Below are positions 4,756 through 47,976 of a DNA stretch of 49,026 bases, in pieces. The notes under the pieces were generated by a model, which was given only the letters and a program-made list of their open reading frames with translations, was not told the origin of the DNA and ran no database searches. This DNA is from Mediterranea sp. (in: CFB group bacteria) (GTDB lineage Bacteria > Bacteroidota > Bacteroidia > Bacteroidales > Bacteroidaceae): contig JAISHU010000104.1 of assembly GCA_031262385.1 (NCBI GenBank), positions 1 through 49,026 on the forward strand, in the 5' to 3' direction. Both the position numbers and the translations under genes were made by a program. How positions within the stretch are numbered: position 1 is the first letter of the stretch; every line of letters begins with the position of its first letter.

Positions 4756-6144
4756 TTATTTTGCCAAGTCTGCAATCACCTGCATAATCTGCTCACCGAT
4801 TTCTTCGGCAGCTTCTTGTGTGGAAGCTTCGCTGTACACACGGATAATGGGCTCGGTATTGCTTTTGCGCAAGTGCACCCATTTGTCGGCGAAGTCAATC
4901 TTCACACCGTCAATGTCGTTCACCTCTTCGCTGGCATAGAGTGCTTTCATTTTGGCAAGGATAGCATCTACGTCGGTATCGGGGGTGAGGTCGATGCGGT
5001 TCTTTGCCATGAAGTATGCGGGATAGGAGGCGCGCAGTTCGGTCATGGTTTTGCCTTCGTGCGCCAGATGACTAAGGAACAAAGCAATGCCCACCAGTGC
5101 GTCGCGTCCGTAGTGCGAAGCGGGATAGATAACACCGCCGTTGCCTTCACCGCCAATGACGGCGCCTACCTCTTTCATTTTGGCTACCACGTTGACTTCG
5201 CCCACAGCCGAAGCAGAATATTGCTGTCCGTATTTGCGGGTAATGTCGCGCAGTGCTCGGGTAGAGCTGAGGTTCGACACGGTATTGCCCGGTGTGTGTT
5301 TCAACACATAGTCGGCTACACTTACCAGCGTGTACTCTTCGCCGTACATGGTACCATCTTGACTAATCATTGCCAGACGGTCTACGTCGGGGTCTACCAC
5401 AAAGGCTACATCGGCTACCCCTTTGCTCATCAGTCCCATGATATCGCCCAAGTTCTTCTCCAACGGTTCGGGGTTGTGTTGAAACTCGCCCGTAGGTTCG
5501 CAGTAAAGCTTCTCAATGTGCTTCACGCCCAACTGTTCCAGCAGTTGCGGCAAGATGATGCCGCCCACGGAGTTCACACAGTCGATAGCTACGCGGAAAT
5601 CGGCTTTGCGGATGGCTTCTACATCAACCAAGTCGAGTGCCAGTACGGCATCAATATGTTTTTGATTGTAAGTGAGGTCTTTTCGGTAACTGCCCAAATG
5701 GTCTACATCGGCATAGTCGAAAGCTTCGGCTTCGGCAATGCGCAGCACCTCATTTCCTTCGGCGGCATTGAGGAACTCGCCGCGTTCGTTGAGCAGCTTC
5801 AGTGCATTCCACTGTTTGGGATTGTGCGACGCAGTAAGGATGATACCTCCTGCGGCACCTTCCATGGTAACGGCGAGTTCGGTGGTAGGTGTAGTAGCAA
5901 GGTCGATGTCTACTACATCCCAGCCCATTCCCATGAGCGTGCCTACAACGACGTTTTTCACCATTTCGCCCGAGATGCGGGCGTCGCGTCCGACAACAAT
6001 TTTATTGCTTTCCACCGTAGCGTTGCGACGGATAAGCGTAGCATAAGCAGAGGTAAATTTCACAATGTCGAGAGGATTCAGTCCCTCTCCCGCACCGCCG
6101 CCAATAGTGCCGCGGATGCCCGAGATTGATTTAATTAGGGTCAT
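4756..6144 (-). CDS. glmM: Phosphoglucosamine mutase (phosphohexomutase superfamily)
   Basis: A 462-residue alpha-D-phosphohexomutase. It starts MTLIKSISGIRGTIGG, a GlmM-like N-terminus, and has the phosphoserine loop TASHNPKQWNALK near residue 100, the magnesium loop DPDVDRLA near 250, the sugar-binding GEGNGGVIYP near 330 and the phosphate-binding RKSNTEPIIRVYSE near 430. GlmM turns glucosamine-6-phosphate into glucosamine-1-phosphate for UDP-GlcNAc, peptidoglycan and LPS. Some members also use mannose or glucose phosphates, so specificity is likely but not proven. Its ATG overlaps by one base the stop of the DUF4827 gene, so they are coupled. Confidence 0.85.
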   Translation of the reverse strand: MTLIKSISGIRGTIGGGAGEGLNPLDIVKFTSAYATLIRRNATVESNKIVVGRDARISGEMVKNVVVGTLMGMGWDVVDIDLATTPTTELAVTMEGAAGGIILTASHNPKQWNALKLLNERGEFLNAAEGNEVLRIAEAEAFDYADVDHLGSYRKDLTYNQKHIDAVLALDLVDVEAIRKADFRVAIDCVNSVGGIILPQLLEQLGVKHIEKLYCEPTGEFQHNPEPLEKNLGDIMGLMSKGVADVAFVVDPDVDRLAMISQDGTMYGEEYTLVSVADYVLKHTPGNTVSNLSSTRALRDITRKYGQQYSASAVGEVNVVAKMKEVGAVIGGEGNGGVIYPASHYGRDALVGIALFLSHLAHEGKTMTELRASYPAYFMAKNRIDLTPDTDVDAILAKMKALYASEEVNDIDGVKIDFADKWVHLRKSNTEPIIRVYSEASTQEAAEEIGEQIMQVIADLAK

Positions 6145-10082: not shown

Positions 10083-10494
10083 AGCCAATTCGTTGCAAAC
10101 GCGAAAACAACGAATCAACTCGGCGGAAACAACGAATCATCCGCACGAAAACAACGAACTGTCGGCACGAAAACAACGAATCAACTGCCGGCTTAGCAAA
10201 TTATCCCGGCAAGTTAAGCTGTATTTCCCGGCAAATTATTGTGTTATCCCGGCAAGTTATCACGCTAACTTGCCGGGATAATTTCATAAAGTTCTTTTTG
10301 AGGCTGTTTTTTCGCGCTGAAGGCGCTTTTTGTTTCTTGACATAATTTCTTCATATCTTTCTGTAAGTATGCGGATTAAATAGCGTATTTTACATAGTTT
10401 AACGCGCTATACTCGCACGAAAGTCACCAAGCCGTCCCTTAGTCCGAAATAAGCCCGTTTTTCGAGGGTTCGTTTGACGTTTTGACACTTTGTC
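10083..10494 (-). repeat. Phased non-coding repeat element, copy 1 (inverted)
   Basis: About 410 bp between convergent genes, the inverted homologue of 26050-26457. In minus-strand order it has block A (GTCAAAACGTCAAACGAACC at 10467-10486 and TAGCGCGTTAAACTAT at 10394-10409), block B (TCAGCGCGAAAAAA at 10307-10320), block C (five sites of the type TTGCCGGG, centred near 10273, 10251, 10230, 10208 and 10188, in both orientations) and block D (four units containing AAACAACGAA on the plus strand, starting at 10105, 10127, 10149 and 10171, exactly 22 bp apart). No convincing ORF is present; the tracks at 9969-10196 and 10048-10281 are chance frames. The rest of 9958-10636 shows nothing else I can name. 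Confidence 0.85.
10244..10281. repeat. Perfect 16 bp inverted repeat inside element copy 1
   Basis: TTATCCCGGCAAGTTA, a 6-base spacer and its exact reverse complement. It consists of two facing C-block sites. In copy 2 the outer bases of this palindrome are kept but the left core is flipped, so the two sites there become direct repeats. This suggests the TTGCCGGG core is a recognition word and not merely a stem. Confidence 0.85.
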
Positions 10495-19970: not shown

Positions 19971-20690
19971 CTACAAAGGTATTTGTATTCCAAAATTGAT
20001 TAAGGAGTAGGCTCCTTGATCGGGTATGTCTCCTTGATAGTTGAGTGGTGCATGTTGCCGGATGCTTTTCCTGAAGTTTAAGGAGGAATAACCCACGGAC
20101 GCCACATAGCTCAGCTTCTTCGGTTTGTACCGCACGCCCACAACGATGTTGTAATTCCAAATAAAGTCGGTAAAGATTTTAGTGGTTGCAGGGGTTCCGT
20201 TATAGTTGAATTTTCCCGTCATCAGCCCGATGGAAACTTCGTTCTCCAAGAAGAGTGCCAACTCTTCGTCCCACAAGTACCAATAAAGTTTGGGTACGAT
20301 ACCTATCTCGGGAGCCGCAAGTTGGTAGTCAAGAGGAGCGACACGTTCTCCAGAATAAGGAATCATCACTATATTCTCCATATTCCACTCGTAAGCTCTG
20401 TAATCGTAATCATAATAGCCGCATCGCGCCCTTAGCTCCACTTTAAAAATACTCAGAGGTTTGGAACTATATTCCACACCCAATGAAGCACCGAATCCCA
20501 TCACTTCATCAAAGAATAATCCACGCTTGAGATAGAAACCGGGAGTTAATGAAAACGGTTGGGCTGCACTGTTTAAAGAGACAAATAGCAAAAGGAGTAG
20601 GATGCCGATAGACTTCACAAAGAAAGCATACATAGACATCCTACATTTCTTTATGGCTCTTACATGACTGTCGGACAATTCCTTTTTCAT
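19971..20690 (-). CDS. Putative outer-membrane beta-barrel protein
   Basis: Up to 239 residues. A hydrophobic signal (SIGILLLLLFVSLNSAAQ, about 27-44) is followed by alternating aromatic/polar strands (YLKRGLFFDEVMGFGASLGVEYSS, RARCGYYDYDYRAYEW, NIVVGVRYKPKKLSYVASVGYSSL) and a C-terminal strand ending INFGIQIPL, consistent with a small barrel. The N-terminus before the signal is long, so Met18 or Met20 may be the true start. No characterised homologue is recognised. Its promoter lies inside a 15 bp inverted repeat, so expression may be phase-variable. Confidence 0.65.
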   Translation of the reverse strand: MKKELSDSHVRAIKKCRMSMYAFFVKSIGILLLLLFVSLNSAAQPFSLTPGFYLKRGLFFDEVMGFGASLGVEYSSKPLSIFKVELRARCGYYDYDYRAYEWNMENIVMIPYSGERVAPLDYQLAAPEIGIVPKLYWYLWDEELALFLENEVSIGLMTGKFNYNGTPATTKIFTDFIWNYNIVVGVRYKPKKLSYVASVGYSSLNFRKSIRQHAPLNYQGDIPDQGAYSLINFGIQIPL

Positions 20691-20720
20691 AACTTAGTTC
20701 TTTTGTGTTTGATATGAATA

Positions 20721-20836
20721 TAAATCCTATTATTTACGTTATTGTGTTGCATGCTTGCCGTGGCATGAGCAATTGCAATACAAAAATAAGGAACAAATAG
20801 CCCAAACAAAATAAATTCAACAAATAATAGGATTTA
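20721..20836. promoter_or_regulatory. Possible invertible promoter bounded by 15 bp inverted repeats
   Basis: TAAATCCTATTATTT at 20721-20735 and its exact reverse complement at 20822-20836 enclose 86 bp. Inside, on the minus strand, TATTTTTG (20781-20788) is a -7 box and TTTG (20807-20810) a -33-like box with an 18 bp spacer, aimed at the outer-membrane protein gene that starts at 20690. Inversion would point it at the SulP 3' end. Invertible promoters with short repeats are well known in Bacteroidales, but no recombinase gene is seen nearby. Confidence 0.55.
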
Positions 20837-20863
20837 ATCGGCTACTCCAACTGTCAATCACTG

Positions 20864-22549
20864 TCAATCATCCATTAGCAGCTCCCTTGCCCGTTCCAAC
20901 GCCGCATTGATGTTGGGACAGATGTTATCTTTCCCTATCAGTTCACAAAAGCCTGCTTTCTGTAAGTCGCGGTGTACTTTGGGGTTGACACCCGACAATA
21001 CCACGACGGTCTTCTCGCGTTCCGCCATGCGGCAAAGATTGGCTAAGTTGTGGATGCCCGTAGAATCTACAAACGGTACGCGGCGCATGCGTATGATGCG
21101 TACACGCGGGCGTTCGCCGAAGTGCGACATGGTCTCTTCGAACTTTGTGGCGATGCCGAAGAAGTAAGGACCGTTGATTTCGTACACCTCTACACCCTTT
21201 GGTATGGCAAGATGCTCCTCGTGCAAGGTCATGTCGACTTCGTTGTTGGGGTCAATCTCATCTTTTATTACCGATATTTGAGTGGTTTCCATAACGCGGT
21301 GCATAAAGAGCAGACAGGCAAGAACAAGTCCCGTACCAATGGCGATAGTCAGGTCGAAGAACACCGTCAGAAAGAAAGTCAGCAACAATACGCCTACGTC
21401 CGACTTGGGATTCTTCATAAACGCGCGAAACGTCCGCCAGCCGCTCATATTATACGATACCATTACCAGCACACCCGCCAGACAAGCCATCGGTATGTAC
21501 TTGGCAAGCGGCATGAGAAACAGCAGGATGAACAACAGCACAATGGCGTGCACAATGCCCGATACGGGAGTGCGACCTCCGTTGTGAATGTTTGCCATCG
21601 TTCGGGCAATGGCTCCGGTGGCGGGGATTCCGCCAAACAACGGAGTTACGATGTTGGCAACGCCCTGTGCTACCAGTTCGGTGTTCGAGTCGTGCTTATC
21701 GCCCGTCACACCGTCGGCAACGGTTGCCGACAGCAGCGATTCGATAGCTCCCAGCGCAGCAATGGTAATGGCAACAGGAAGAAGGTCTTTCACAGCTTCC
21801 CAGTTAATTGCCGGTACTGCCATGCCGGGCATTTCGGCTTTGATACTGAAGCGGTCGCCTATCGTGTCGAGTCCTTCCACTCCTAAGTAGGTACGAAGCA
21901 ACCACACCCCCACGGTCATCACCACAATAGCGATGAGCGAACCGGGAATCTTCTTGGAAAAGCGGGGAGCGAGAGCTATAATCGCAATGCTTCCGATGCT
22001 TACCAGCGTGTTCCACACATGCAGTGTGTCGAAATGGCGGAAATAAAGCAACCATTTCTCCACAAAATCGCCCGGCATCTTTTCGCCCCCTAAGTTCAAA
22101 CCGAACACGTCGGCTATCTGTGTAGTAAATATGGTGACGGCAATACCCGCCGTAAATCCTATGACAATGGGGTAAGGGATAAACTTAATGATTGTACCCA
22201 ACCGGAACAGACCCAGCAGCACCAAGATGACGCCCGCCAACAAGGTGGCAACGAGCAATCCAGCTTCGCCGTATTGCTGCACCACTCCATACACTATGAC
22301 AATAAAAGCGCCGGTAGGTCCGCCTATTTGCACCTTGCTGCCACCCAGCAAAGAGATAAGAAATCCGGCAACGATTGCCGTGATAATTCCTTTTTCGGGC
22401 GATACTCCCGAAGCAATGCCAAAAGCAATGGCAAGCGGAAGAGCCACGATTCCCACAATAACACCCGCCATAAGGTCGGCGGCGAACTGCTCTTTGGAGT
22501 AGTTCTTGAGCATTGAAAACAGCTTCGGCTGAAATGAAAAAGAGTTCAT
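20864..22549 (-). CDS. SulP family anion transporter with STAS domain
   Basis: A 561-residue inner-membrane transporter. The membrane domain (about 20-420) has ten or more hydrophobic segments and SulP signatures such as FAADLMAGVIVGIVALPLAIAFGIASG and GPTGAFIVIVYGV. Residues about 440-555 form a STAS domain (GVEVYEINGPYFFGIA... RMRRVPFVDSTGIHNLANL). Members carry sulfate, bicarbonate or other anions, usually with sodium or protons; the ion is not determined here. A tandem CTGTCAATCA repeat (20851-20870, plus strand) spans its stop codon. Confidence 0.9.
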   Translation of the reverse strand: MNSFSFQPKLFSMLKNYSKEQFAADLMAGVIVGIVALPLAIAFGIASGVSPEKGIITAIVAGFLISLLGGSKVQIGGPTGAFIVIVYGVVQQYGEAGLLVATLLAGVILVLLGLFRLGTIIKFIPYPIVIGFTAGIAVTIFTTQIADVFGLNLGGEKMPGDFVEKWLLYFRHFDTLHVWNTLVSIGSIAIIALAPRFSKKIPGSLIAIVVMTVGVWLLRTYLGVEGLDTIGDRFSIKAEMPGMAVPAINWEAVKDLLPVAITIAALGAIESLLSATVADGVTGDKHDSNTELVAQGVANIVTPLFGGIPATGAIARTMANIHNGGRTPVSGIVHAIVLLFILLFLMPLAKYIPMACLAGVLVMVSYNMSGWRTFRAFMKNPKSDVGVLLLTFFLTVFFDLTIAIGTGLVLACLLFMHRVMETTQISVIKDEIDPNNEVDMTLHEEHLAIPKGVEVYEINGPYFFGIATKFEETMSHFGERPRVRIIRMRRVPFVDSTGIHNLANLCRMAEREKTVVVLSGVNPKVHRDLQKAGFCELIGKDNICPNINAALERARELLMDD

Positions 22550-47618: not shown

Positions 47619-47830
47619 ACAATCTTCCTAATTTATTCGGAAGCTGTTTTGAATTTAGTGCTTGTTTCGTCCTGATTTTGGTTGACCGTAGTATCTCAAT
47701 CTTTTCCTCAAGCAAAGAGAAGGTGCACGCTAAAGGTGTGATGGACGCGTGATAAGCTGTTTTATAACTTTTCTTTCTTACATCCTTATCTTTACAGCTT
47801 ATTTTATTGTCTTTGCACCGCACATTCTTT
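47619..47830. other. Non-coding stretch before repeat array 4
   Basis: No gene is supported. A minus-strand ORF (47614-47994) crosses it and the repeat array, but it lacks a recognised domain and its middle is repeat sequence. Only a small CTTCC/GGAAG stem near 47627 is visible. Confidence 0.5.
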
Positions 47831-47833
47831 ACC

Positions 47834-47921
47834 GTCCGACCAACGTCGTACGAGCGTCCGACGATGGTTGTACGACCGTACGACGTTGGTCGGACGCTCG
47901 TACGACGTTGGTCGGACGGTA
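47834..47921. repeat. Phased repeat array 4, with 11 bp sub-repeats
   Basis: Four units of exactly 22 bp begin at 47834, 47856, 47878 and 47900. Each splits into two 11-mers, and all eight 11-mers begin GT and have AC at positions 6-7 (for example GTCCGACCAAC, GTCGTACGAGC, GTACGACGTTG, GTCGGACGCTC). Units 1-2 and 3-4 face each other, giving a 32 bp perfect inverted repeat (47831-47862 with 47889-47920). It lies between two plus-strand genes. Confidence 0.85.
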
Positions 47922-47948
47922 AAGGAAGTGCAGTATAAAAATAATATA

Positions 47949-47976
47949 TTACTGATACATAATTATTTATCAGTAA
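47949..47976. repeat. AT-rich inverted repeat
   Basis: TTACTGATA at 47949-47957 and TATCAGTAA at 47968-47976 form a 9 bp stem. No clear role; the rest of 47977-48154 shows no gene or site. Confidence 0.5.

Follow-up and report, generated by a model that had tools for sequence, protein, structure and literature searches.

The closest described systems are the invertible promoters of gut Bacteroidales. In Bacteroides fragilis, the invertible promoters IVp-I and IVp-II are served by the tyrosine recombinase BF2766/Tsr19 (PMC4747536). The published promoter consensus of the Bacteroidales consists of −33 TTTG and −7 TANNTTTGY (PMC8748976), and the arms of invertons are quoted as 10–40 nt in length (PMC11892184).

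Here we describe a locus of similar layout in the window, a 49,026-nucleotide contig of Mediterranea sp., where the 173-bp gap between a sulP gene and a gene for a predicted outer-membrane protein (OMP) holds a perfect inverted repeat with a promoter match inside. The account that we consider probable, somewhat above an even chance, is a fixed promoter accompanied by an inverted repeat of unproven function. On this view, an ordinary promoter of the Bacteroides type, TTTG-N18-TATTTTTG, would lie in fixed orientation behind sulP and drive the OMP gene. The repeat of 15 bp would be a local quasi-palindrome, of a type frequent in the AT-rich intergenic DNA of the source genome, and recombination at it is probably not active in the source lineage. 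The weights given to this and the other readings are our judgement and are not computed.

A perfect inverted repeat around a promoter match

The arms of the repeat, TAAATCCTATTATTT at 20721–20735 on the plus strand and its reverse complement at 20822–20836 on the minus strand, are 15 nt each, 100% complementary and 86 nt apart. Their identity ends exactly at 15 bp on both sides, with no match between the flanks. The right arm sits 27 bp beyond the stop codon of sulP, ahead of the promoter, and the left arm forms part of the OMP gene's predicted 5′ leader, between the promoter and the start codon. The arms thus fall within the length range of inverton arms and flank an intergenic segment of 86 bp (20736–20821), which would invert if the repeat were a recombination site. 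Pure chance is an unlikely origin for the pair in the sulP–OMP gap, since shuffled intergenic sequence never yields it: none of 3000 dinucleotide shuffles of the 173-bp region reached an arm of 15 nt, the longest being 13, and among 60 block shuffles of the whole window none produced a pair of at least 15 nt at 30–600 bp.

Inside the repeat, the minus strand carries a predicted Bacteroides promoter at 20780–20810, formed by TTTG at 20810–20807, a spacer of 18 nt and TATTTTTG at 20788–20781, followed by T, in agreement with the −33/−7 consensus (PMC8748976). This is the sole TTG-N17-22-TAnnTTTG match in 20600–20950. It is directed at the ATG at 20690, with a predicted transcription start near 20773 and a leader of about 80–85 nt that includes the left arm. 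When the segment is inverted in silico, the promoter moves to the plus strand and is directed at the 3′ terminus of sulP, and the OMP gene is left with no TAnnTTTG facing it; the consensus promoter thus faces the gene in one orientation only. The first-pass annotation had described a 15-bp perfect inverted repeat around 86 bp and a full −33/−7 promoter reading toward the OMP gene, both of which are borne out, and the in-silico flip turns the promoter away from the gene that inversion was proposed to switch off. Both the activity of the promoter and its fixed orientation are our inference.

The same arrangement can be read as an invertible promoter, in which an invertase of the tyrosine or serine type, encoded at another place in the genome, recombines the 15-bp arms, the assembled orientation being ON for the OMP gene and the OFF orientation pointing at the sulP 3′ end. 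We regard this reading as possible yet doubtful. It draws on the perfect arms, the consensus promoter inside, the surface-protein target, the correct ON geometry and the loss of any promoter facing the OMP gene upon the in-silico flip, and it agrees with Bacteroidota invertons being mainly intergenic and often carrying the same promoter motif (PMC11892184).

A rare predicted β-barrel gene downstream of sulP

The OMP gene at 19971–20690 on the minus strand is a rare accessory gene, a 239-aa ORF with no Pfam or NCBIfam family match. Its AlphaFold2 model (pLDDT 84) shows long strands after a hydrophobic helix at the N terminus, and a Foldseek search with this model returns OmpA (E 1.8e-07) together with the NspA and OmpW barrels. 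The hydrophobic N-terminal segment and antiparallel β-barrel expected of such proteins are thus both present in the predicted model, and the earlier naming of the promoter's target as an outer-membrane protein is well supported, the product being a predicted β-barrel of the OmpA/OmpW type.

Upstream, also on the minus strand, the neighbouring gene at 20864–22549 encodes a SulP-family permease with a STAS domain and would be faced by the promoter if the segment were inverted. Across the genus sulP is common, whereas the OMP gene occurs rarely and, compared with most members, is an accessory insertion. Homologues of the OMP, at about 40–46% identity, occur in 4 genus genomes, every one in another neighbourhood, and a 399-genome family sample contained no further ones. 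The OMP gene was found behind sulP in none of the genus or sampled family genomes, which makes a comparison of orientation across relatives impossible and deprives the invertible-promoter reading of an orthologous locus. In three genomes (L024, L030 and L089, at 2919–2984), a shared 14-nt perfect inverted repeat, CTTTATTTTACCTA, with a gap of 38, lies directly upstream of the sulP start.

Because the OMP gene is an accessory insertion, the repeat may also be viewed as the remnant of a small transposable element, a MITE-like unit of 116 bp, with terminal repeats of 15 bp, by which the promoter arrived. The unit is compact and has perfect terminal inverted repeats as its ends, but it is single-copy in the source genome and its flanks lack a clear target-site duplication. 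Both features disfavour a dispersed repeat or MITE, and we find such an origin scarcely credible.

Recombinases and copies of the site

The source assembly is a metagenome bin of 2.6 Mb that is 84% complete, to which the window contributes a contig of 49 kb. It contains three tyrosine-recombinase matches, two intact and one fragment. The first intact protein has XerD as its best match and scores above the XerD equivalog cut-off, the second has XerC as its best match and falls slightly under the XerC cut-off, and the third is a truncated integrase of 149 aa at a contig edge, which stops short of the domain's C-terminal part. No serine resolvase or invertase was found in the recovered assembly, and the 49-kb contig itself carries neither a tyrosine nor a serine recombinase. 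That the recovered assembly holds no invertase beyond XerC/XerD and the fragment argues for a fixed promoter and against an invertible one. The low count could stem from the incompleteness of the bin, which lacks about 16% of the genome; mobile genes are frequently lost from metagenome bins. However, genus relatives range from 1 to 48 tyrosine-recombinase genes per genome, and since some near-complete members have only 2–3, a low count need not be an artefact.

A more specific proposal would have an 86-bp, very short invertible promoter serve a rare, unclassified small β-barrel OMP through one dedicated site, recombined either by the housekeeping XerC/XerD or by an invertase that the bin lacks; we consider it very unlikely. 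As for a site of the Xer/dif type, a 28-bp core of 11-6-11 structure shows 15/28 matches to the E. coli dif sequence, which is the 95th percentile of AT-rich window DNA. This is not a convincing match, and a Xer/dif-type site was rejected on this comparison with the E. coli sequence.

The arm pair is single-copy in the source genome and absent from the 157 other genus genomes compared (one genome per species), which again favours a fixed promoter and weighs against recombination at the site. The best other single arm site in the source genome differs at 1 position and stands without an inverted partner in its vicinity, none of the other arms with one or two mismatches there has an inverted partner, and the pair was not found among viral contigs. 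Several similar sites would be expected of a master invertase; as the arm pair is unique, with no other site pair, a Mpi-like multi-site invertase regulon is rejected.

Loci of the OMP family give a similar picture. Among the 13 other loci, a perfect pair of at least 12 nt with a comparable gap occurs upstream in only 1, and its arms are unrelated, which is a further argument for the fixed promoter; a conserved upstream repeat is missing in the remaining 12. The exception is L134 (L021, 1113–1220), where a 16-bp perfect inverted repeat, ATTCGTTTAATAAGTC, with a gap of 76, has its right arm directly against the start codon of a distant homologue of the OMP gene and encloses a −7 box, TACTTTTG, facing that gene. 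This parallel lends some weight to the invertible-promoter reading, but L135 and L136, the nearest relatives of L134, lack this repeat. In its own right, the L134 repeat is a candidate for a separate inverton in another species. Upstream of the distant OMP homologues, L135 and L136 have TTACTTTTG and CAAAAGTAA facing each other about 22–25 bp apart. A similar pair is present at L134 too, where the OMP homologue lies behind an AraC-like regulator ORF.

Inverted repeats elsewhere in the source genome

Perfect inverted repeats are frequent in the source genome. In a 399-kb sample of it, about 16 perfect pairs of at least 15 nt were counted (about 1 per 25 kb), many of them from dispersed palindromic families, and this frequency also supports the fixed-promoter reading. 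In 573 kb of related loci, there are 28 perfect pairs of at least 14 nt with gaps of 30–600. In one defined community, the median number of confirmed invertons in Bacteroidota strains was 8.5 per genome (PMC11892184); extrapolated to the whole source genome, repeats of this kind would exceed that median, so that most of them are probably not invertons.

Two dispersed families are present in the window. A long hairpin at 47800–47951, with 75-nt arms, is built from CGTCCGACCAACGTCG/CGTACGA units; the 16-mer has 53 copies (25+28) in the source genome and none in the 157 other genus genomes, and the hairpin belongs to a lineage-specific dispersed repeat family. The second family, the palindrome AAATTATCCCGGCAAGTTA at 10100–10289 with 19-nt arms and a gap of 49, occurs on several other contigs too and adjoins imperfect tandem units of about CGGCACGAAAACAACGAATC.

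Setting such families aside, the 399-kb sample contains two wide-gap pairs of at least 15 nt, at the OMP locus and between tig and clpP, and both enclose a promoter match, against 13/71 gene-upstream gaps of 100–400 bp that have a promoter match facing the gene. This 2/2 is mildly suggestive and, like the shuffles, which never yield such a pair, speaks against the fixed-promoter reading. The tig–clpP pair, at L159 (C30) 5460–5591, is an 18-bp perfect inverted repeat, GTTCGTGAGTTTTTAAGC, with a gap of 96, and its promoter-like match faces the housekeeping protease gene clpP of the source genome. Promoter switching of clpP is implausible, and the pair therefore cautions against calling the OMP repeat a switch from its layout alone. 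Repeated GAGTTTTTAAG units lie beside the tig–clpP pair.

Predicted pairing of the arms in RNA

The repeat may instead have a structural or regulatory role that involves no inversion, either as a long-range hairpin in a read-through sulP–OMP RNA or as a pair of operators, one on each side of the promoter, for a DNA-binding protein, although we rate this as unlikely. In the minimum-energy fold of the minus-strand RNA of 20700–20850, the arms do pair (−31.6 kcal/mol, z −1.94, with 9/200 shuffles as good), which is a modest excess of stability over shuffles, and the arm TAAATCCTATTATTT contains a short internal dyad, AAAT-N6-ATTT. On the other hand, transcripts from the predicted promoter would hold one arm only, the leader alone is unstructured (z +0.58), and no related sequence is available for covariation. 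Rfam returned no match. Nor is there a terminator-like site, in the sense of a short-loop GC-rich hairpin with a T run, which agrees with the earlier statement that the repeat is not a terminator hairpin.

Comparison with known invertible promoters

Beyond confirming the layout of the OMP locus, the analysis leaves inversion as a possible reading, with the layout as its support, and the repeat is a weak, ordinary candidate for an inverton. From the first-pass reading of a phase-variable promoter, the repeat, the promoter and the OMP target stand, while the inversion itself gained no independent support, given that no invertase beyond XerC/XerD and a fragment was found in the recovered assembly, the site is single and clpP has the same layout. 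An inverted repeat, a consensus promoter and a surface gene are together insufficient for calling an inverton, because inverted repeats are abundant in the source genome and the same arrangement occurs at clpP. As at the OMP locus, the arms of the tig–clpP repeat are perfect, its gap (96 bp) is wide and a promoter match inside faces the downstream gene; unlike the OMP locus, its target is a housekeeping protease and its arms are of GAGTTTTTAAG-type repeats.

Similar to the OMP locus, IVp-I and IVp-II have inverted repeats around a promoter ahead of surface-related genes, including the outer-membrane protein BF3397 (PMC4747536). Their inversion was demonstrated by orientation-specific PCR and is abolished by deletion of the recombinase gene (PMC4747536). 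In addition, one recombinase acts there on a local and a distant site (PMC4747536), as opposed to the genome of the OMP locus, where neither such a recombinase nor a second site was found.

The Bacteroidota intergenic invertons identified with PhaseFinder and PhaseFinderDC share with the OMP locus the intergenic position, a −33/−7 consensus promoter inside and arms of 10–40 nt, but they are defined by reads in both orientations, whereas the OMP-locus repeat is known from one assembled orientation (PMC11892184, PMC8748976). Those PhaseFinder invertons that regulate resistance genes lie directly downstream of an invertase gene, unlike the OMP locus (PMC11892184, PMC8748976). If the OMP-locus promoter does invert, it would be at most an addition to a well-known kind of switch, controlling one more ON/OFF surface protein beside the many known in gut Bacteroidales.
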